64,000 nucleotides of DNA from Devosia nanyangense (lineage in GTDB: Bacteria > Pseudomonadota > Alphaproteobacteria > Rhizobiales > Devosiaceae). How positions within the stretch are numbered: position 1 is the stretch's first letter; each line of letters begins with the position of its first letter. The notes beneath the pieces are model-generated. The model was not told the origin of the DNA. It searched no databases and saw only the letters and a program-made list of their open reading frames with translations. A program made the position numbers and the translations under genes. Below, one piece after another: positions 2,509-36,712 of this stretch. The stretch lies in NCBI GenBank assembly GCA_016213505.1, contig JACRAF010000006.1, forward strand, positions 1 through 64,000, given 5' to 3'.

Positions 2509-3177
2509 TTAGTTCATCGCGATCGTGGTGAAGCCGTAGGCGTTGCCCAGTTCGGCATAGGCCGAGGCGACATCGGAGAAGCGGATTTCGATCTCGCCGC
2601 GACGCTGCAGGGTGACCGGATCGCCGCCGGCCAGATGCGGCTTGCCGTCGACGAAGACCTCGCCCGGATCGAGCGTCACCGAACCGGTGCCGTCGTTGTT
2701 GATGTGGAGGATGAACTTGGTCGGATCGAAATCGGTGGACATGCTGTTCTCGCTGGCGAGCGCCTTGACCACGTCGTCGATCGGCTTCAGCACGTGCAGG
2801 CTCAGCGCGACATTGCCGTCGGCGTCGGCGGGCGAGGCCTCGAGGGCGAAGAGGTTGGCGGCGTCGTAGGTCGAGTCGGGGGTGACGATCTGCAGGCCGA
2901 TCTCGATTTCGGCGAGCTGGTCGCCGTCCTTGCTGATGCACTGGCCCTTGCCGGTCACCGGGGCGAGGGTCTTGACCTTCTCGATGAGGGCGTCGAGGCC
3001 CTTCTTGCAGTCTTCCTCGCCGCCCTGCGGGATGCGGAGCAGCGCCGGGGTCTCGAGCGCCTGGCCGTCGGCCAGCACTTTCTGGACGTCGGCGAGATAG
3101 ATGGTCGACTCGACCTGCGGCGCGCAGGCGGCGAGCAGCGGCAGCGCGAGGAGGGTCGCGATGATTTTCGTGTTCAT
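2509..3177 (-). CDS. Hypothetical lipoprotein (222 aa)
   Basis: The N terminus MNTKIIATLLALPLLAACAP is a type II signal peptide with lipobox LAAC (Cys18), so the protein should be lipid-anchored in the envelope. The rest is soluble and mostly beta/alpha, with VESTIYLADVQKVL just after the anchor, a Cys near residue 60 (EDCKKGL), and a likely beta domain with EIEIGLQIVTPDS. I do not recognise a named family. It lies about 100 bases upstream of the secreted-protein gene on the same strand, so the two may be co-transcribed and both act in the periplasm. Confidence 0.75.
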   Translation of the reverse strand: MNTKIIATLLALPLLAACAPQVESTIYLADVQKVLADGQALETPALLRIPQGGEEDCKKGLDALIEKVKTLAPVTGKGQCISKDGDQLAEIEIGLQIVTPDSTYDAANLFALEASPADADGNVALSLHVLKPIDDVVKALASENSMSTDFDPTKFILHINNDGTGSVTLDPGEVFVDGKPHLAGGDPVTLQRRGEIEIRFSDVASAYAELGNAYGFTTIAMN

Positions 3178-3249
3178 GATGGAGCTCCCAAATGATGGAC
3201 GCTCATGCCATTTCGAAGATGAACGGAAGCTGAGCGCCGGTGCCGCAGC

Positions 3250-4380
3250 TTAGTCCTGCTTCTGCCGTATTCCGAGCACCCGATCCTTGCCACGGATACG
3301 CTCGCGCGCCTGGATCGGCCACAGCGAGTATTCGCCGCCGTCGAGCACGTGATGGGCATGGATGGCCCAGTTGGGGTCCTCCAGCGCACCGCGGGCGAGG
3401 GCGACGAGATCGGCCTCGCCGGTCGCGAGGATCGTCTCGGCGTCGCGCGGATCGTCGATCAGGCCGACGGCGATGGTCTTGATGCCGGCCTCGCGCACGG
3501 CCTTGGCGAGGGGGACCTGATAGAGCGGCCCCGGCTTCAGGCCGTAGCCGTCGAACCCACCCGACGAGCAGTGGACGGCGTCGACGCCGCGGGCCTCGAG
3601 CTCCTTGGCGAGGACGATGGAGTCCTCGATGCCCCAGCCGCCCTCGCTGCCGTCGGTGGCCGAGATGCGCACGAACAGGGGTTTTCCCGCCGGCCAGACG
3701 GCGCGGACGGCGTCGACCACTTCGAGCGCGAAGCGCATGCGGTTGTCGCGGCTGCCGCCGTAGCGGTCGGTGCGCTGATTGGCGATGGGGGAGAGGAACT
3801 GGTTGATGAGGTAGCCGTGGGCGGCGTGAATTTCCACCACGTCGAAGCCGGCCTGATCGGCGCGGCGGGCGGCATCGGCGAAAGCCTGAACGGTGGCCGC
3901 GATGTCCGCCTCGGTCATGGCGCGGGGCGTGGTGTAGCCGGGGTGCTTGTCGGAGTGGATGACGGCGCTCGGCGCCACGGGCGTCCACGATTCGAAGGCG
4001 ACGGCAGGCTTCTCGGCCTCGGTTTCGTCAAAGCCGTTGCGCCAGGCGATGGGCGTCGAGGCCTTTCGTCCGGCATGGGCGAGCTGGATGCCGGCCGCGG
4101 CGCCCTCGGCGTGGAGGAAATCGACGATGTGCCGGAGCGGCGCGATCTGCGCGTCGGTCCACAGCCCGAGGTCGCCGTAGGAGATGCGGCCTTCCGCCGT
4201 GATGCCGGTGGCCTCGAGGATGACGAGGCCGAAGCCGCCGATCGCGAAGCGGCCGAGATGGACGAAGTGCCAGTCATTGGCGAGGCCGTGCTGCGCCGAG
4301 TACTGGCACATCGGGGCGACGACGGCGCGATTGCGAAGGGTCACGTCGCGCAGGACGAGCGGGGAGAACAGGAGGGACAT
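3250..4380 (-). CDS. NADH:flavin oxidoreductase, Old Yellow Enzyme family (YqjM-like)
   Basis: A 376-residue FMN-dependent ene-reductase with a TIM-barrel fold. Visible family landmarks are RNAVVAPMCQYSAQ (the Cys in the APMC motif marks the YqjM/thermophilic-like class), IQLAHAGRKAS, the substrate-binding HAAHGYLINQFLSP, the following NQRTDRYGGS loop, and a phosphate-binding C-terminal stretch DLVALARGALEDPNWA. Enzymes of this type reduce C=C bonds of enones and maleimides with NAD(P)H and are linked to electrophile detoxification. The start MSLLFSPLVLRD was chosen over an upstream in-frame ATG because it fits the family N terminus and follows GGAGA-type bases. It lies 85 bases downstream of the alkylation-repair gene on the same strand and may share its transcript. 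Confidence 0.92.
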   Translation of the reverse strand: MSLLFSPLVLRDVTLRNRAVVAPMCQYSAQHGLANDWHFVHLGRFAIGGFGLVILEATGITAEGRISYGDLGLWTDAQIAPLRHIVDFLHAEGAAAGIQLAHAGRKASTPIAWRNGFDETEAEKPAVAFESWTPVAPSAVIHSDKHPGYTTPRAMTEADIAATVQAFADAARRADQAGFDVVEIHAAHGYLINQFLSPIANQRTDRYGGSRDNRMRFALEVVDAVRAVWPAGKPLFVRISATDGSEGGWGIEDSIVLAKELEARGVDAVHCSSGGFDGYGLKPGPLYQVPLAKAVREAGIKTIAVGLIDDPRDAETILATGEADLVALARGALEDPNWAIHAHHVLDGGEYSLWPIQARERIRGKDRVLGIRQKQD

Positions 4381-15424: not shown

Positions 15425-16587
<1,163 letters not shown>

Positions 16588-28800: not shown

Positions 28801-30333
28801 ATGGGGGTCGAACACACCAGCTTTGGGCCGTTCCAGTTCGATCGCGGCAACGGAACGCTGCTGCGGTCCGGGACGCCTGTTGCCGTCGGCCACCGCGGCC
28901 TCGCGCTGCTGGGGGCGCTCCTCGATCGCGATGGCGATGTTGGCAAAGCCGAACTGATAGAGGCGGCGTGGCCGGGGACGATTGTCGAGGAGGGCAACCT
29001 CACGGTGCAGATCGCGGCCCTGCGCAAGGCGCTGGGGCCGCGTCCCGACGGGCAGGAGTGGATCGTCACCGTGCCGCGGGTGGGCTATCGGATGATGCGG
29101 GGGACCGGGGGCCCGGAGGCGGTCGAGCCGAACTCGCCGCTCCCGTCGCTTGCCGTGCTGCCATTCCAGAATCTGAGTGGCGACCCCGAGCAGGAGTATT
29201 TTGCCGACGGCGTGGTCGAGGACATCATCACGGCTCTCAGCCGCTTCAAGAGCTTTGCGGTCGTGGCGCGGAACTCGTCTTTTGTTTATCGTGGACGGGC
29301 GGTTGATGTGCGCGCCGCGGCCAACGAAATGGGCGTCCGCTATGTTCTCGGAGGCAGCGTGCGGCGCTCGGGTTCGCGCCTGCGGGTCACGGCGCAGCTG
29401 GTCGAAGGCGGCAGTGGCGCGCATATCTGGGCCAGTAACTATGACGGTGCGATCGAAGACGTGTTCGATATGCAGGACCGCATCACCGAGCAGGTCGCCG
29501 GTATCGTTCATCCCAAAATAGAGCTGGCGGAAATCGAGCGGTCGCGCCGCAAGCGTCCCGAGCGACTGGATGCCTACGATCTCTACCTGCAGGGTGCTAT
29601 CAAGCACGCCGCCCGGCACATCAACGAGAACGCCGAGGCGTGCAGCTTGCTCGAGCGATCGGTCGAGCTCGATCCGCATTTCGCACCGGCGCTTGCCACC
29701 CTCGCTTGTGCGCTCGACGCGAGCGTCAGCATGGGCTGGGAGCCGTTCAGCCACGACGACCGCGCAAGGGCCGTGGATTATGCCCGCCGTGCCATCCGCG
29801 AAGGATCTGGTGACGGCGTCGTGTTAGCCAGGGCGGCGATCGTGCTGATGCATTGCGGCCGGGACTACCAACACGCGATGGAACTGGTGCGGACCGCCAG
29901 GCAGATCAACGCCAATGATGTGGTGGTGACTACCTTTGCGTCGCTGGTGGAACTGCATTGCGGCGACGTGCAGCAATCGTTGGCGTTGTCGCATCGGGCC
30001 ATCGAGCTGATGCCGACCGACCCAGGCGCGCACTGGGCGCTCACGGCGATCTCTCACGCTCACATGGCGCTCGGCAATTTCGAGGAAGCGATCCAATGGG
30101 CCGAACGCTCGCGGGCGATCAACCCGGAATATGATCCGTCGTTCTGGATGCTGACGGCAGGCAATGCGCAACTCGGGCGGATGGACGAGGCCCGAAAGTG
30201 GCTCGCGGCCTTCCTCGCAATGCACCCGGACATGACGGTCGAGCGGCTTCGGGCAGCCCAGCCGGATCGCTATCCCGATCGGATGGCCAATGTTCTCGAG
30301 GGCCTGCGGCTCGCGGGCCTGCCGGAAGTCTAG
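28801..30333 (+). CDS. Winged-helix (OmpR-type) plus TPR regulator, copy 1
   Basis: A 510-residue protein. Residues 1-100 are an OmpR/ToxR-type winged helix: FGPFQFDRGNGTLLRSGTPV, LIEAAWPGTIVEEGNLTVQI, AALRKALGPRPDGQEWIVTV and PRVGYRMM. Residues about 115-230 (LAVLPFQNLSGDPEQEYFAD, GVVEDIITALSRFKSFAVVA and YVLGGSVRRSGSRLRVTAQL) form the FlgO-like/adenylate-cyclase-associated domain common in CadC-like regulators. The rest is TPR repeats. No membrane helix is visible, so it is cytoplasmic. No sensor input is evident. Only about ten of the first 100 residues differ from copy 2. Confidence 0.85.
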   Translation: MGVEHTSFGPFQFDRGNGTLLRSGTPVAVGHRGLALLGALLDRDGDVGKAELIEAAWPGTIVEEGNLTVQIAALRKALGPRPDGQEWIVTVPRVGYRMMRGTGGPEAVEPNSPLPSLAVLPFQNLSGDPEQEYFADGVVEDIITALSRFKSFAVVARNSSFVYRGRAVDVRAAANEMGVRYVLGGSVRRSGSRLRVTAQLVEGGSGAHIWASNYDGAIEDVFDMQDRITEQVAGIVHPKIELAEIERSRRKRPERLDAYDLYLQGAIKHAARHINENAEACSLLERSVELDPHFAPALATLACALDASVSMGWEPFSHDDRARAVDYARRAIREGSGDGVVLARAAIVLMHCGRDYQHAMELVRTARQINANDVVVTTFASLVELHCGDVQQSLALSHRAIELMPTDPGAHWALTAISHAHMALGNFEEAIQWAERSRAINPEYDPSFWMLTAGNAQLGRMDEARKWLAAFLAMHPDMTVERLRAAQPDRYPDRMANVLEGLRLAGLPEV

Positions 30334-30405: not shown

Positions 30406-31941
30406 ATGGGGGCCGAATACACCAGCTTTGGGCCGTTCCAGTTCGATCGCGGCAACGGAACGCTGCTGCGGTCCGGGACGCCTGTTGCCGTCGGCCAGCG
30501 CGGCATCGCGCTGCTCGCAGCGCTCCTCGACCGCGGTGGCAATGTTGGCAAGGCCGTCCTGATGGAGGCGGCCTGGCCGGGCACCATCGTCGAGGAGGGC
30601 AACCTCACGGTGCAGATCGCGGCCCTGCGCAAGGCGCTGGGGCCGCGTCCCGACGGGCAGGAGTGGATCGTCACCGTGCCGCGGGTGGGGTATCGGCTGG
30701 TCCGTGGCGAGATGCCGGTTGCACCCACGGCGACCGAAAAGCTGCGGCCGCCAGCGATTGCGGTGATGCCGTTCGCCAATTTGAGTGGCGACGCCGGACA
30801 GGACTATTTCGCCGACGGCGTCGTTGAGGATCTGATCACCGCGCTCAGTCGTTTTCGCAGCTTCGCGGTGGTCGGGCGTAACTCGACGTTCCGCTACAAG
30901 GGACAGGCGCTAGACCTCCGCGACGTGGCGCGTGAGTTGGGTGTCCGCTACGTGCTCGAGGGCAGCGTCCGCCGTTCCGGCAGCCGGCTCCGGATCACTG
31001 CGCACCTCGCCGACGGGGGGACCGGCGAGCACCTGTGGGGCCAGACCTTTGATGGCGTGGTGGCCGACATCTTCGACGTGCAGGACCACATCGCCGAGAA
31101 GGTGGTCGGGCTGATCGAACCACAGGTTCGCCGAGCCGAAATCGAACGGTCGCGTCGTAAGCGGCCGGAAAGCCTCGATGCCTATGATCTGGTGCTGCAG
31201 GCGTGGGCGGTGGGCCGCACCGTCGGGCCAGGTGACATCGAGAAGGCCCATGCGCTTGCCGTGGAAGCAGTGCGGCAGGCACCAACGTACGCGATGGCTT
31301 TTCGCGCGCTTGCGTGGGCTCTGCAGGTGAATCTCCTGTTCGACGGCCGGCCGCTGACCGATGACGATACTGCCAATTGTCTTGATGCCAGCCGTAAAGC
31401 GCTGCTCAATGCCGACGGCGACGCCGAGATCCTGATCGACCACGCCAATATTCTGATCCAGATCGGTCAAGACTACGACCAGGGCATGCACTATGTGCGC
31501 GCTGCAGTGGACGCGAACCCGAACAACTTCCTGGTGCAGCAGCAGGCTGCGACCTGCAACATCCATGCGGGCAGCCTGGAGGCGGCCCTGTCGCACGCCG
31601 AACGCGCAATGGAGTTGAGCCCGAACGATCCATGGTTACCGGTGCCGCTGACCTCGATCGCCCACGCGCGGCTTGCGCTCGGCGACTACGAGGCGGTGCT
31701 GGAGCCGGCGGAGCGGGCGATTGCGCTCAACCAGAATTTCCGTCCCCCGCATTGGATGGCGATCGCTGCAGACGTCCACTTGGGACGGATGGAGGACGCC
31801 CGGCGACGCCTCGCGATCTATCGGGCGCTGTATCCTGACGACACGATTGCGCGGATCGCTGCACGCCAGCATCCGAGGGACCCGGCTCGGGCGCTGGTCT
31901 TCATCGAGGCGCTGCGCGCCGCCGGCCTGCCGGAGGTCTAG
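30406..31941 (+). CDS. Winged-helix (OmpR-type) plus TPR regulator, copy 2
   Basis: A 511-residue paralogue of copy 1 with the same order of domains: winged helix (residues 1-100), FlgO-like domain (PPAIAVMPFANLSGDAGQDY, YVLEGSVRRSGSRLRITAHL) and TPR region (from about 260). Both proteins end AGLPEV. The winged helix is nearly identical, including the recognition helix EEGNLTVQIAALRKALG, so both should bind the same DNA. The TPR halves differ widely (AIKHAARHINENAEA in copy 1, AWAVGRTVGPGDIEKA here). The identical upstream regions suggest both are controlled by the same factor, perhaps themselves. Confidence 0.85.
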   Translation: MGAEYTSFGPFQFDRGNGTLLRSGTPVAVGQRGIALLAALLDRGGNVGKAVLMEAAWPGTIVEEGNLTVQIAALRKALGPRPDGQEWIVTVPRVGYRLVRGEMPVAPTATEKLRPPAIAVMPFANLSGDAGQDYFADGVVEDLITALSRFRSFAVVGRNSTFRYKGQALDLRDVARELGVRYVLEGSVRRSGSRLRITAHLADGGTGEHLWGQTFDGVVADIFDVQDHIAEKVVGLIEPQVRRAEIERSRRKRPESLDAYDLVLQAWAVGRTVGPGDIEKAHALAVEAVRQAPTYAMAFRALAWALQVNLLFDGRPLTDDDTANCLDASRKALLNADGDAEILIDHANILIQIGQDYDQGMHYVRAAVDANPNNFLVQQQAATCNIHAGSLEAALSHAERAMELSPNDPWLPVPLTSIAHARLALGDYEAVLEPAERAIALNQNFRPPHWMAIAADVHLGRMEDARRRLAIYRALYPDDTIARIAARQHPRDPARALVFIEALRAAGLPEV

Positions 31942-32063
31942 ACGGTTTTGCTCGCTTTTGGATCATTTAGGAACATTTAGGCGCCCGCTACAGGACCCAA
32001 AACGGTCCTCTGGGCGATGGTCTCCACACCGGCGCACGGAGCGCCTACCCACAGGAGACCGAA

Positions 32064-32237
32064 ATGCACACTCTCATGATCGTCTCGTCCAAGCAGGGCA
32101 TCGCGTTCAACGAGGCCGCGGCGGTCGCGCCCTTCGCCATCATCGAGAAGCTCTCGAGCTTGGCCGGCCAGGTGCTGAAGGCTGCCCGCTCGCCGAGCGC
32201 GCCGCGCAGCGCCGGCCCGGTTGCGGCTCAGGCATAA
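32064..32237 (+). CDS. Small hypothetical protein, 57 aa
   Basis: The translation is MHTLMIVSSKQGIAFNEAAA, then VAPFAIIEKLSSLAGQVLKA and a tail rich in Ala, Ser and Pro ending VAAQA. ACAGGAGACCGAA before the ATG is a strong ribosome-binding site. No family is recognised. It is not a signal peptide. Two short inverted repeats upstream, AGGACC-CAAAAC-GGTCCT (31992-32009) flanked by CGCCC/GGGCG, could be a hairpin or an operator. The gene stands alone between the regulator pair and the convergent bufferin operon. Confidence 0.6.
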   Translation: MHTLMIVSSKQGIAFNEAAAVAPFAIIEKLSSLAGQVLKAARSPSAPRSAGPVAAQA

Positions 32238-32290
32238 GGGAGGCCACAGCGTCCGCTCGGCGCACGCCTGATCCACCAGCGGCCCCCCGC

Positions 32291-32755
32291 TCAGCCCCTG
32301 AGCCTTCGCTCGATCAGATAGTCGAGGGACAAAACGCCTGCGCCCCTGGTCAACAGCGTCACGAGCACCGACGCCCAGAGCAGGCTTTCGACCCAGGACG
32401 CCGGGTAGACAAGCAGCACGATCACGGCGGACATGGCGAGGAGCGGCAGCGTCGCGAAGCGCGTGCCCAGCCCGACGAACAGCAGGATCGGCATTGCGAG
32501 TTCGACGCTCATGGCGAGCCGTGCGGCCAGCTCGGGGGCAATGAGCGGCAGCCTGTACTCTTCGGCAAACAGCTTCACGGCGAACTCGAAGGAGCGCAGT
32601 TTCAGCAAGCCGGCGTTGAAGAAGACAAAGCCGATGGCGACGCGCATCGCCAATTGGATGATCGAGAAGGGAACGCGCTCGAGCAGCGCGCGAGCCTCGG
32701 TGAAGAGCCGTCGCCACACCGGTTTCGTGGCGCCCATTGTCATGGCTTCAGTCAT
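32291..32755 (-). CDS. DoxX family membrane protein of the bufferin operon
   Basis: A 154-residue protein with about four helices. SIIQLAMRVAIGFVFFNAGL, KLRSFEFAVKLFAEEYRLPL, MSVELAMPILLFVGLGTRFA and MSAVIVLLVYPASW match the DoxX/DoxD family, and DoxX proteins are common partners in MNIO/bufferin operons. Its role there is not established; it may support electron transfer or membrane redox chemistry. It is the last gene of a four-gene leftward operon and overlaps bufC by 8 bases. GGGAGACACAAG before the ATG is a fair ribosome-binding site. Confidence 0.88.
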   Translation of the reverse strand: MTEAMTMGATKPVWRRLFTEARALLERVPFSIIQLAMRVAIGFVFFNAGLLKLRSFEFAVKLFAEEYRLPLIAPELAARLAMSVELAMPILLFVGLGTRFATLPLLAMSAVIVLLVYPASWVESLLWASVLVTLLTRGAGVLSLDYLIERRLRG

Positions 32756-33575
32756 CTTGTGTCTCCCTGTGAGGCGAGTGAATGGCCGTCGCCAGGCCTT
32801 CCGCAAAAAGGCGCGCGAGGGCCGCGGAAATATCGAACCCGGGGTCGTCGCAAAGCGCCTGCTCGGCTGCCGCCGCGAGAGGCCGATCGGCCTGCAAGGA
32901 CTGCCGAAAGAAGAACTCGCCGCCGCTCAGGCGCCGCCAGCCGAATTTGCCGCGGGCACCGCGCAGCTCGAGATGCACGGTCTCGGCCGCAAAGGCGAGC
33001 TGCTCGGGTGCCGTCTCGGTGACGCGAAGCTTGACGAGCTCGTCGACCGGCCAGGCCGAGCGCAGATAACTCAGGCCCGGCTGCAGATCGACACGGACAT
33101 CGCCGAGCCGATGGGGCGGGATCGCCGCCAGGTCCGTGATGGCAATCGCAGGTGCTTCGATCTCGACCGCGATAGAGCCGAGGCGCCAGTCGAGCCGGGC
33201 GATGTCGGCGACGTAGGGCGGCAGGTCGGCATAGTCCGGACCGGCGATGATCTCGGTCAGCTCCGCGCCGTATTCGGCGAGGCTCGGGGCGCGAGGCGGC
33301 CTGGCCTCCAGCACCGCGTCGGCGAGCGCGGTCATGCGGGGTGTGCCGATCAACCACTCCAGCGTGGGATAGCGCCCGCGCAGGTGGCGCCGGAAGCTCT
33401 CGCGATAGTGGCGGCGATAGATCGAGAGCCGCTCGATCGGATCGCGCGGTGCAACGAGCAGCCCAGCGACCGCAGACGACGGCTCGCCTGCGACCGCGTG
33501 CCGGAAGGTGGCCTGGGTTTCAGCCAGCGCGAGCACTGCGGACTCCGGATTTGAGGGCACTGGCGGCGACGGCAT
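32748..33575 (-). CDS. bufC: BufC-like DUF2063 protein (bufferin maturation partner)
   Basis: A 275-residue protein. LAETQATFRHAVAGEP near the N terminus, then APRDPIERLSIYRRHYRESF and RRHLRGRYPTLEWLIG are the DUF2063 landmarks (HvfC/BufC). The C-terminal half (RVDLQPGLSYLRSAWPVDEL) is a separate beta-rich domain. In characterised MNIO systems this protein partners the MNIO enzyme and presents the precursor peptide. The gene overlaps bufB by 56 bases, an unusually long overlap that supports tight coupling. An alternative GTG start 39 bases later would still overlap. Confidence 0.88.
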   Translation of the reverse strand: MPSPPVPSNPESAVLALAETQATFRHAVAGEPSSAVAGLLVAPRDPIERLSIYRRHYRESFRRHLRGRYPTLEWLIGTPRMTALADAVLEARPPRAPSLAEYGAELTEIIAGPDYADLPPYVADIARLDWRLGSIAVEIEAPAIAITDLAAIPPHRLGDVRVDLQPGLSYLRSAWPVDELVKLRVTETAPEQLAFAAETVHLELRGARGKFGWRRLSGGEFFFRQSLQADRPLAAAAEQALCDDPGFDISAALARLFAEGLATAIHSPHRETQDD

Positions 33576-34389
33576 CGGCCTTGGCCGCCTCGTCCAGCAG
33601 CGTCGTCAGCTCGGGGATGGCGTTGTCCCATTCGATGAGGGTGGGGCGGGCGCCGAAGCGGGCGACGGCATAGGCGTAGAGGTCCCAGGCGTGGCCGTCG
33701 ATCGGCCGGGAATGGGTGTCGATGATGACCTCGCCACCGTTGGCCTCAGCTTCGATTTCGAGGCCGCCCAGATGCATCTCGCCGATCGCCTCGCCCGGGA
33801 ACTCGTCGATGTAGCGATAGGGGTCGTAGCCGAGGTTGTGGGCGCTGACGTGAACGTTGGATACGTCGCACAGCAGGCGGCAGCCGGTCTTGTCGACCAC
33901 GGCGGCGAGGAACGCCGTTTCAGTCATGGTCGAGTCGGCAAAGCCGAGATAGGTGGACGGGTTTTCGAGGTGATAGGGGCGGCCCAGCGCGTCCTGGACC
34001 TGGTTGATGTGGTCCGCGACGATGGCGAGCGATTCGCGGTGGTAGGGCAGGGGCAGCAGATCGTTGAGGTAGTCGCCCTCGTGCGTCGACCATGCGAGGT
34101 GGCCCGACACCATGATGGGATCGAGCCGATCGATCAGGGCCTTCACCCGCGCCAGATGGGTGCGGTCGATGCCGCCGGCGCTGCCGACCGAGACCCCGAC
34201 ACTATGCACGGAGATGGGATAGCTGCGGGCGATCTCGAGCAGCAGTTCGGCAGCGTAGGGGTTGGCGAGATAGTTCTCGGGGTGGATTTCGAACCAGCTC
34301 GCATCGGGCCGATCCTTGATGACGGCGGCGAGGTGCTGCAGGCGCAGGCCGACGCCGGCACCCAGCGACGAAACCACTTGGCTGTGCAT
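33520..34389 (-). CDS. bufB: MNIO-family enzyme BufB (DUF692), bufferin-modifying oxidase
   Basis: A 289-residue TIM-barrel multinuclear iron enzyme of the DUF692/MbnB family. LGAGVGLRLQHLAAVI, WFEIHPENYLANPY, VGVSVGSAGG, PIMVSGHLAWSTHEGDYLND, YHLENPSTYLGFADS, LLCDVSNVHVSAHNLGYDPY, EMHLGGLEIE and DTHSRPIDGHAWDLY carry the His, Asp and Glu residues that bind the iron cluster. MNIOs oxidise cysteines of ribosomal peptides. In bufferins the product is a thiooxazole that binds copper. The start MHSQVVSSLGAG was chosen over upstream ATGs in the same frame because it matches the family. It lies 56 bases after bufA. Confidence 0.93.
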   Translation of the reverse strand: MHSQVVSSLGAGVGLRLQHLAAVIKDRPDASWFEIHPENYLANPYAAELLLEIARSYPISVHSVGVSVGSAGGIDRTHLARVKALIDRLDPIMVSGHLAWSTHEGDYLNDLLPLPYHRESLAIVADHINQVQDALGRPYHLENPSTYLGFADSTMTETAFLAAVVDKTGCRLLCDVSNVHVSAHNLGYDPYRYIDEFPGEAIGEMHLGGLEIEAEANGGEVIIDTHSRPIDGHAWDLYAYAVARFGARPTLIEWDNAIPELTTLLDEAAKADAVAASALKSGVRSARAG

Positions 34390-34445
34390 GGCAGGTCTCC
34401 CAAGGCGCCGGGGCGGCCGCGGAGCCGTCCCGGCGAGACGACAAA

Positions 34446-34709
34446 TCACATGACGGTCGTGTGGCCGCCGACGATGCGGTCGCAGTAGCCCGCCGGAACG
34501 TAGACCCACTCGGTGGGGTCGGCGTCGGCCTTGGACATGCCGGCACAGGAGTGGGCGCCGGTGGTCGAGGCGCAGTCATTGGCGCCGGCCTTGGCGATGC
34601 CGAAGCACTTCTCCGACGCGTAGGTCGGCACGGCTGCCGGGCCGGCAAGCGCGAGGGTCGGCAGAGAAATGGCGGCCGCGAGGGCCGAAGCGATGAGGGC
34701 GCGATTCAT
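34446..34709 (-). CDS. bufA: Bufferin precursor BufA (DUF2282), copper-binding RiPP
   Basis: An 87-residue precursor. A Sec signal peptide ([20 protein letters not shown]) is followed by a core with four cysteines: Cys35 in [13 protein letters not shown], Cys46 in ANDCAS, Cys55 in HSCAGMSK and Cys76 in AGYCDRI. The E-K-C-F/Y-G-x-A-K-A-G-x-N-D-C and H-S-C-A-G patterns are those of bufferins (DUF2282). In Caulobacter the related peptide is exported and, after modification, buffers copper in the periplasm. CAGGAGGACT precedes the ATG (strong). It is the first gene of the leftward operon and is divergent from sigF. Confidence 0.92.
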
Positions 34710-34762
34710 TGGGTAGTCCTCCTGAAGGAAAGGCGAGCGGTTTGTTGCTCGACATCAGGTGT

Positions 34763-34788
34763 TTCGCTTCGGGAGCGGGGGTTGTTAC
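34763..34788 (-). promoter_or_regulatory. SigF-type ECF promoter of bufA
   Basis: On the minus strand GTAAC (34788 to 34784) and CGAA (34766 to 34763) are separated by 17 bases. They match the GTAACC / CGAA pattern I recall for Caulobacter SigF promoters. Transcription would start near 34755, leaving a leader of about 45 bases for bufA. The divergent sigF promoter has the same pattern. Confidence 0.6.
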
Positions 34789-34852
34789 GCTCGGCAGGAC
34801 ACGAAAGCGTGATAGGGCAGTGTCCGCCGGGCATGAGAATTGTCGGCCGCAC

Positions 34853-34877
34853 GTAACAAATCCGCCGTCAGGACGAA
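34853..34877 (+). promoter_or_regulatory. SigF-type ECF promoter of sigF (autoregulated)
   Basis: GTAAC (34853-34857) and CGAA (34874-34877) are 16 bases apart. The predicted start of transcription, near 34884, is only about 4 bases before the annotated ATG. The mRNA would be leaderless or nearly so, unless the real start is the ATG at 34930. Confidence 0.6.
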
Positions 34878-34887
34878 TGAGGGGACA

Positions 34888-35442
34888 ATGGGGTCCGAAA
34901 CCTGCACCGAGGAAAGGCTGGCAGATCTGATGCGAGCGGCTTTGTCCGGCGACGACGCAGCGTACACGGCATTTCTGCGGTGCGCGGCCGATCTGGTGCG
35001 GCGGATGGCGCGGCGGCGGGTCGGCGAGGGGTCGACCATTCTACCAGAGGACATCGTGCAGGAGACGCTGCTGGCGGTTCATCTGAAGCGCCACACCTGG
35101 CGCGCCAAAGAGCCGATCCTGCCCTGGCTGATGAGTATCGCCCGCTACAAGATCGTGGATGCGTTTCGTCGTCGCGGCCAGCGCGTCTACGTGTCCGTCG
35201 ACGACCTGGCCGAGGTGCTGGCCGCGCCGGTCAAGGAAGGCGAGGTCGATGACGCAAGGCAAATCGAGCGCGCCGTTGCCGGCCTCAGTCACGGACAGCA
35301 AAGGGTTGTGCGCGCGATCGCCATCGAGGGCCGGTCGATCCCGGAGACTGCCAATGCGCTGCAGATGAAGGAGACGGCGGTGCGTGTCGCCTTCCATCGC
35401 GGGTTGGCGACGATAGCGGCGCGGATAGGACGCCAGACATGA
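34888..35442 (+). CDS. sigF: ECF sigma factor, SigF-like
   Basis: A 184-residue sigma-70 family factor without regions 1 and 3. Region 2: EDIVQETLLAVHLKRHTWRA and PWLMSIARYKIVDAFRRRGQ. Region 4: LSHGQQRVVRAIAIEGRSIP and AVRVAFHRGLATIAARIG, the HTH that reads the -35. The stop overlaps the start of the anti-sigma gene by four bases (ATGA). By analogy with Caulobacter SigF it directs genes for heavy-metal and oxidative stress. Two matching promoter motifs flank its divergent region, so it should control itself and the bufferin operon. The start is uncertain: ATG at 34930 is an alternative. Confidence 0.88.
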   Translation: MGSETCTEERLADLMRAALSGDDAAYTAFLRCAADLVRRMARRRVGEGSTILPEDIVQETLLAVHLKRHTWRAKEPILPWLMSIARYKIVDAFRRRGQRVYVSVDDLAEVLAAPVKEGEVDDARQIERAVAGLSHGQQRVVRAIAIEGRSIPETANALQMKETAVRVAFHRGLATIAARIGRQT

Positions 35443-36077
35443 AAACGGACGATCTCATCGCCAAGCTCGGCGCGGACAATTCACGACGGTCATGGTCGCC
35501 GGCGGCGACGCTGCTCATCGCTGTCGCCGTGAGCGCGATCGTCGCCGGGTCGATGCTGATGCTGACCATAGGCGTGCGCCCGGACATAGGGGCGGCGCTT
35601 ACGACCTGGCGTTTCGATTTCAAGTTCGTGGTGACGCTGACCGTCGTTGCATCGGCTTACAGCCTGCTGCATCGGGCGTTGTTTCCCCGATCGGGCACGC
35701 ACTTTCCGTTGTGGCTGCTGCTGGCGGGTCCGACATTGCTGCTTGCGGGGATTGGGGTCGAGTTGATCGGAATGCCCGAGGCCGGCTGGGCGATGGCGGC
35801 GATCGGCAAGAACGCCGTGTTTTGCCTGACCGTCATTCCGGCCCTCGGCATCGTTCCGCTCGGCCTGCTGGTGTGGGCGCTGCGGCAGGGCGCGCCAACC
35901 CGGCCGACGCTGGGCGGATTCTGTGCGGGTATCCTCGCGGGAGGCATTGCGGCGACGTTCTATGCCGCCAATTGCACCGACGACTCGCCGCTCTTCGTCG
36001 CGACCTGGTATCCGATCGGGGTCGTCGTGCTCGGCGCCGTCGGGGCGGTTCTGGGGCGTTACGCGGCGCGCTGGTAG
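35439..36077 (+). CDS. nrsF: NrsF-like anti-sigma factor (DUF1109)
   Basis: A 212-residue inner-membrane protein with six helices (AATLLIAVAVSAIVAGSMLM, FKFVVTLTVVASAYSLLHRA, LWLLLAGPTLLLAGIGVELI, FCLTVIPALGIVPLGLLVWA, FCAGILAGGIAATFYAANCT and GVVVLGAVGAVLGRYAA). Cys129 and Cys179 are 50 residues apart, the same spacing I recall for the two essential cysteines of Caulobacter NrsF (131 and 181). A third, Cys162, is extra. The opening MKTDDLIAKLGA is the cytoplasmic sigma-binding segment. Metal or oxidation at the cysteines is expected to free SigF. It overlaps sigF by four bases. Confidence 0.9.
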   Translation: MKTDDLIAKLGADNSRRSWSPAATLLIAVAVSAIVAGSMLMLTIGVRPDIGAALTTWRFDFKFVVTLTVVASAYSLLHRALFPRSGTHFPLWLLLAGPTLLLAGIGVELIGMPEAGWAMAAIGKNAVFCLTVIPALGIVPLGLLVWALRQGAPTRPTLGGFCAGILAGGIAATFYAANCTDDSPLFVATWYPIGVVVLGAVGAVLGRYAARW

Positions 36078-36094
36078 CCGCCGACCACGGCTGG

Positions 36095-36712
36095 TCAGCG
36101 TCCGAGCAGCCCGTTGAGGGCCTGGACCAAGCGCCCGAGCCGGCCGGTGCCGACGCCGTGGTCGTAGCCCACCGTCACCTTGGTGTAGGGCTTTTCCATC
36201 ACGCAATAGTCCTGCCCGAAGATGTGGGTCTTGAGCACGCAGGTCTCGGTGTAGCCGTAGCGGCGGAGCAGGGCGAGGGCGACCTCGTTCTCCGGCCGCA
36301 CATAGGTGTAGGCCTTGTGGAACTTGCCGTTGTCGAAATGCTCGTCGAAGGCGTGCATGCCGTGCATGCCCAGCCGGGTCTTGCGGAAGGCCGGGAAGAT
36401 CCAGCTCCAGTAGCGGAAGACGGCGCCGAATTCCGGGCCCGAGATCAGCGCACCGCCGACTTTGCCCTCCGAAAGCAGGCACATGACGTGCCAGGGGTCC
36501 TGGCGCTGCAGCATGCGCAGGTAGGATTTGGTCAGCCGGGCCTTCTCGTAGGCCTTGAATTCGGCGTTGTAGTGCGGGCTTTCATCGATCACCGCCATCA
36601 GTTCGGCATGGACGAGATCGAGGTCGGCGGCCGTCGCGGGACGAACCGCAAAGCGCGGCACGGCCCGCGCTTCGGCGGCGGGTGGAGCGGCTGTCAGGGT
36701 GGTGTCGGTCAT
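36095..36712 (-). CDS. GNAT family N-acetyltransferase
   Basis: A 205-residue protein. FAVRPATAADLDLVHAELMA is the N-terminal GNAT strand and helix. A core with PWHVMCLLSEGKVGGALISG and AFRKTRLGMHGMHAFDEHFD follows. KFHKAYTYVRPENEVALALL and RRYGYTETCVLKTHIFG contain the acetyl-CoA helix and the usual R-R-Y/F-G-F/Y pattern. The acceptor is unknown. It is convergent with nrsF (17 bases between stops) and divergent from acs. Confidence 0.85.
   Translation of the reverse strand: MTDTTLTAAPPAAEARAVPRFAVRPATAADLDLVHAELMAVIDESPHYNAEFKAYEKARLTKSYLRMLQRQDPWHVMCLLSEGKVGGALISGPEFGAVFRYWSWIFPAFRKTRLGMHGMHAFDEHFDNGKFHKAYTYVRPENEVALALLRRYGYTETCVLKTHIFGQDYCVMEKPYTKVTVGYDHGVGTGRLGRLVQALNGLLGR

Follow-up and report, generated by a model that had tools for sequence, protein, structure and literature searches.

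Which switch governs a bufferin gene cluster, and how firmly are cluster and switch tied to each other? These questions are raised by a locus in Devosia nanyangense (assembly GCA_016213505.1, contig JACRAF010000006.1, positions 1 to 64,000; this whole stretch of 64,000 nucleotides is called the window below), in which the effector genes bufA, bufB, bufC and doxX run leftward and sigF and nrsF, encoding an extracytoplasmic function (ECF) sigma factor and its membrane anti-sigma factor, run rightward. It is quite probable that the locus is a Buf1 bufferin cluster under a dedicated ECF16 pair of the RpoE7-EcfR7 type, in which an envelope signal frees the sigma factor, two promoters fire, and a periplasmic copper-binding peptide is made. 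The locus is a complete and ordinary instance of a circuit type already described in Caulobacter (PMC3511200, PMC8224329) and in Sinorhizobium meliloti (PMC6180224); the observation that its parts may be modular is modestly new. The sensing-to-effector circuit outlined in the first-pass annotation, which had been made from the letters alone, is probably right in its main lines, although not new.

The sigma factor and its promoters

The first-pass annotation had taken Caulobacter SigF/NrsF as the model of the switch. In a SigF tree of 33 rows, the window protein falls within an 11-row clade together with S. meliloti RpoE7 (support 97/94), separate from the Caulobacter-type sigma factors and from those linked to methionine-sulfoxide repair (Msr), and the same split is obtained without the plasmid rows. 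The first SigF tree left out L088, L093 and L094 (copies of L005, L004 and L003) and L105–L118 (longer copies); L098, where the contig ends, gave no SigF row, and the Caulobacter row is L051, a metagenome-assembled genome (MAG) named C. vibrioides. Orthology to Caulobacter SigF is rejected by this placement and by promoters reading GTAACA, not GTAACC. Considering also Arg166, shared with the RpoE7 side, the switch is by sequence closest to S. meliloti RpoE7-EcfR7, not to Caulobacter SigF. A known copper-peptide circuit is thereby extended to the Devosia lineage, and S. meliloti RpoE7 takes the place of Caulobacter SigF as its proper model, which changes both the inducers to be expected and the reading of the two conserved NrsF cysteines.

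The gap between bufA and sigF (34710–34887, 178 bases) holds a pair of sigma-F-type promoters pointing outward (Table 1), which the first-pass annotation had not included. Shuffled sequence would be expected to give 0.43 matches to GTAAC-N15-18-CGAA in the window; there are three, a number reached in 0 of 100 shuffles. Two of the three lie in this gap and the third at 16109–16135. All 12 RpoE7-type loci (window included) have the motif on the bufA side, and 10 of them have it on the sigma side. Twelve of the 73 stretches upstream of bufA, a set that includes the window (L002) and four stretches anchored on a wrong cysteine (L033, L069, L072, L077), carry it on the coding strand, where its frequency elsewhere in the loci would predict 0.4. 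Because matching promoters face both ways, and because in S. meliloti overexpressed RpoE7 raises the four divergent genes SMb20530–SMb20527 as well as its own unit (PMC6180224), the sigma factor very probably drives, by analogy, both itself and bufABC-doxX, as had been proposed at the outset. The sigF start is ATG 34888, and the following in-frame ATG is at 34930. In seven other RpoE7-type loci (L092, L003, L004, L005, L097, L087 and L089), the first in-frame sigF start lies 7–18 bases past the −10 box, so that the sigF mRNA may be almost leaderless there, or a later start may be used.

The locus is worth comparing with the related systems. It shares with S. meliloti RpoE7-EcfR7/SMb20530–SMb20527 (locus L139) the six genes, the divergent layout and GTAACA promoters on both sides, with SigF 54.9% and NrsF 41.5% identical. 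Caulobacter CC3254–CC3257, controlled by SigF-NrsF, likewise comprises DUF2282, DUF692, DUF2063 and DoxX proteins beside SigF and an NrsF with two conserved cysteines, but its sigma factor belongs to another clade, its promoter reads GTAACC-N16-CGAA (PMC3511200), and its SigF has msrPQ and a further bufferin operon under its control as well; copper induces this regulon, and cells carrying sigF::Tn5 are sensitive to copper (PMC8224329). Bradyrhizobium EcfF-OsrA, compared by its published description, has GTAAC(g,a)-N14-15 promoters and the same two cysteine positions, 129 and 179, but is induced by H2O2, and its listed regulon includes methionine sulfoxide reductases, with no bufferin genes named in Table 3 of the source (PMC3420878). 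From Buf1 clusters in general, described in a bufferin survey that places sigma-factor and NrsF genes in Buf1, not Buf2, clusters (PMC12452194), the locus shows no difference in kind: the core genes and the sigma factor/NrsF pair are alike.

Apparently separate histories of switch and bufferin genes

Sequence comparison indicates that the sigma factor and the bufferin genes have different histories, which is the new point of this analysis. The effector proteins are closer to those of a Xanthobacteraceae MAG locus (L008) than to those of S. meliloti, which belong to another bufferin lineage (BufA 63.3 versus 36.6%, BufB 64.0 versus 45.9%, BufC 42.1 versus 26.6%, DoxX 58.8 versus 36.5% identity), whereas SigF follows the opposite trend, with 32.0% identity to L008 against the 54.9% to S. 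meliloti. The BufB tree groups the window protein with L006–L010 and L026 in a clade of 11 rows (100/100), to which the rows from S. meliloti, Chelatococcus and Rhizobium do not belong; a topology grouping together the 12 BufB proteins that have RpoE7-type partners was rejected (p-AU, approximately unbiased test, 2.09e-25).

The sixth base of the −35 box and sigma residue 166 in the recognition helix vary with the clade of the sigma factor and not with that of BufB. In the 12 RpoE7-type loci this base is A at 19 and G at 3 of 22 sites, never C, whereas in 15 SigF-type loci (6 buf, 9 Msr) it is C at 20, G at 3 and T at 1 of 24 sites, never A; it is C in all three L008-type loci, and C also at L006, which has the window's type of BufB and no sigma gene nearby. 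All 13 rows on the RpoE7 side have Arg at residue 166, and all 20 remaining rows have Lys there. The labels A and C were assigned after the promoters had been seen, and base and residue each change once on the tree, so that their match is not statistically independent and their link is offered as a hypothesis. From its place in region 4, residue 166 would contact the −35 box, and Arg versus Lys may set the promoter choice between the sigma clades.

We place about equal weight for and against a scenario in which bufferin operons and ECF16 switches are separable, an operon of the Xanthobacteraceae kind having been recruited by an RpoE7-type sigma factor in the Devosia lineage and its promoter re-matched from C to A, with the choice possibly set by Arg166 or Lys. 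If this were true, bufferin control would be insulated from the Msr paralogue, which is also carried, beside the RpoE7 type, by two genomes of the same genus (G002 and G014), and the pairing of promoter base and sigma residue would offer a simple test of how ECF16 paralogues in one genome avoid cross-talk. The Msr-linked type is confirmed by Pfam at L105 (Oxidored_molyb, cytochrome b561) and assigned at the other loci by clade. At one such locus, L109, a Met-rich frame that looks exported by eye (2971–3360, minus strand) adjoins the SigF-NrsF pair, resembling the BcrX/MrpX peptides.

Signal, cysteines and competing explanations

As we infer signal, chemistry and function for the source organism, the six-helix membrane protein NrsF would hold the sigma factor in the resting state; an envelope signal, with copper excess or a thiol-active stress as the likeliest candidates, would be read via Cys179 on the periplasmic side, while Cys129 would maintain NrsF in the form that binds the sigma factor; and the freed sigma factor would fire both outward promoters, yielding more sigF-nrsF and bufABC-doxX products. 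BufB together with BufC would then convert the central Cys46 and Cys55 of BufA into thiooxazoles, a chemistry described in PMC13097082, and BufA would be exported by Sec, its Cys35 and Cys76 paired, with copper bound in the periplasm. Modification of the BufA cysteines had been anticipated in the first-pass annotation; by analogy to Buf1 bufferins, where modification falls on the central pair of cysteines and the outer pair forms a disulphide (PMC12452194), two of the four are probably modified and no more. Secretion of BufA, also supposed there, is not expected, because bufferins sequester copper in the periplasm (PMC12452194).

The window NrsF has cysteines at 129, 162 and 179. Among 27 NrsF rows, which are phmmer matches to the window protein and in which L098 and L119 represent one locus, Cys129 is present in 27, Cys179 in 26 (all except L095) and Cys162 in 3. 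Both Cys129 and Cys179 had been proposed to sense stress; both are conserved, but their being equal sensors is unlikely in view of mutants of relatives. In Bradyrhizobium OsrA, C129S is constitutive with sigma binding lost and C179S blocks the H2O2 response (PMC3420878), and in Caulobacter NrsF, single cysteine mutants have raised basal expression and keep inducibility (PMC3511200). By analogy, Cys129 is more likely structural, with Cys179 as the sensing candidate; the two mutant studies partly disagree, so that the sensing step is one that we infer. At L008, an NrsF-family protein (3054–3752, minus strand; PF06532, 4.1e-26) adjoins the bufferin operon and, by eye, lacks a cysteine at the Cys179 place, offering a natural test of the role of this residue.

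Several points weigh against the proposed circuit. S. meliloti RpoE7, the closest model, is uninduced by H2O2, CdCl2 and K2CrO4, and copper is not named among the tests (PMC6180224); related ECF16 systems respond to H2O2 (PMC3420878) or HOCl (PMC8315932). The window BufA is only 36.6% identical to S. meliloti BufA. Three proteins fall below the NCBIfam cut-offs (BufC 24.5 against 142 for HvfC, DoxX 60 against 80 for HvfX, NrsF 98.2 against 300), and a fold search of the PDB with the NrsF model listed 262 matches with E values as high as 10, not one of which had an E of 0.001 or less. Finally, GTAACA-N14-17-CGAA is unenriched assembly-wide, with 5 matches against 10 for a reversed-pattern control, so that the promoter evidence is one of position and conservation, not of number. 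A wider regulon in the source genome was sought with this strict motif and rejected: two of the five matches are the gap pair, two (L101, L104) lie within coding frames, and one (L100) lies just upstream of a gene for flavin mononucleotide (FMN) reductase but on the other strand, where no gene was seen in front of it. The assembly has two Oxidored_molyb genes, and neither contig carries a strict-motif match.

The same circuit may instead be triggered by oxidant or chlorine stress, as in the EcfF-OsrA pair of Bradyrhizobium and the BcrS-AbcS pair of Brucella, in which case the bufferin would guard against stress-mobilised copper. We regard this as rather unlikely: the responses of ECF16 relatives to H2O2 via Cys179 and to HOCl speak for it, as does the first linkage of Caulobacter SigF to stationary-phase oxidative stress (cited in PMC8224329), but S. 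meliloti RpoE7 does not respond to H2O2, and the residues following Cys179 are C-[TP]-D-D in the buf-linked RpoE7-type rows versus mostly C-[TG]-E in the Msr-linked rows, indicating that the two kinds of sensor loop differ. This difference gives a starting point for working out which signals ECF16 anti-sigma factors detect. Distinctly improbable is a main metal of BufA other than copper, such as gold, mercury or zinc; the Cupriavidus gig genes respond to gold, silver and copper, and MerC-bufferin fusions exist, but a benefit has been demonstrated, in the available text, for copper alone (PMC12452194, PMC8224329). That the cluster is constitutive or under another factor, the sigma pair mainly controlling itself and genes elsewhere, is highly improbable, since, although the promoters are consensus matches only and the three further matches lie as described above, a search of 31900–36200 gave no sigma-70 promoter-like site and the bufA-side motif is retained in every RpoE7-type locus.

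Gene assignments, neighbours and distribution

The arrangement given in the first-pass annotation agrees with the coordinates and Pfam matches (Table 1), and the family searches that it had suggested, of bufA against DUF2282 and of bufB against the MNIO family, both gave strong matches.

Table 1 Features of the bufferin locus and its switch
Feature	Coordinates	Strand	Description
doxX	32291..32755	−	154-aa DoxX/HvfX-like membrane protein; PF07681, E 3.6e-14
bufC	32748..33575	−	DUF2063 partner protein; start ATG 33575 or GTG 33536; PF09836, E 4.4e-14
bufB	33520..34389	−	289-aa MNIO enzyme; PF05114, E 1.7e-94
bufA	34446..34709	−	87-aa Buf1 (DUF2282) bufferin precursor; PF10048, E 4.2e-25
bufA promoter (predicted)	34763..34788	−	GTAACA-N16-CGAA
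sigF promoter (predicted)	34853..34877	+	GTAACA-N15-CGAA; −10 ends 10 bases before ATG 34888
sigF	34888..35442	+	184-aa ECF sigma factor, RpoE7 type; Sigma70_r2, E 2.8e-11
nrsF	35439..36077	+	six-helix membrane anti-sigma factor; PF06532 (NrsF, DUF1109), E 4e-48

The effector genes form a Buf1 cluster, with a DUF2282 precursor, an MNIO enzyme of the BufB kind, a DUF2063 partner and DoxX. BufA has an N-terminal signal peptide, judged by eye, and retains all four Buf1 cysteines (35, 46, 55 and 76); it gave no NCBIfam match. BufB scores 336.5 bits against NF050167 (MNIO_BufB, "MNIO family bufferin maturase"), above the cut-off of 310, and has relatives with solved structures (3bww, 8hci and MbnB), while a PDB sequence search with BufC gave no match at 0.001. 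Overlaps of bufB with bufC and of bufC with doxX make a single transcript likely. The ECF sigma gene, preceded by a GTAAC...CGAA promoter and overlapping the gene of a six-helix NrsF by 4 bases, forms an ECF16 pair; SigF scores 212 bits against PRK12512 (cut-off 198), and the NrsF structure model has a predicted local distance difference test score (pLDDT) of 87.4 and long helices. The source assembly, which comprises 69 contigs with a total of 4,191,025 bases and is 91.75% complete, holds one DUF2282 match and one MNIO match, and nothing was found in a search for literature joining Devosia, copper and DUF692.

Beyond doxX, the window contains two tandem winged-helix/tetratricopeptide repeat (TPR) regulators (28801–30333 and 30406–31941; 55% identity over 512 columns, with the first 100 residues near-identical), fairly clearly the result of a tandem duplication. 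Between the second of them and doxX lies a 57-aa open frame (32064–32237, plus strand) with no Pfam or NCBIfam match.

In the genome contig collection, 75 loci were found by BufB, several of them cut by contig ends; a SigF match lies nearby in 12 and is divergent from bufA in 10. DUF2282 occurs in 30 and NrsF in 19 of 61 genomes, the source genome included, and of 18 other genomes from this genus, 10 have NrsF, which stands beside bufA in 5 (G002, G008, G010, G013 and G014). In plasmid records, BufB relatives are present in 337 (E 1e-30, all below 60% identity) and SigF relatives in 203 (E 1e-20); on the Chelatococcus plasmid pCO-6, the same six genes are annotated in the same order. Close BufB relatives (59–64%) occur in MAGs labelled Gemmatimonadetes and Acidobacteria (L007, L009 and L010), through either transfer or misbinning. 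At L059/L061, two bufB-like genes lie on one stretch about 5 kb apart, one of them without an adjoining bufA.

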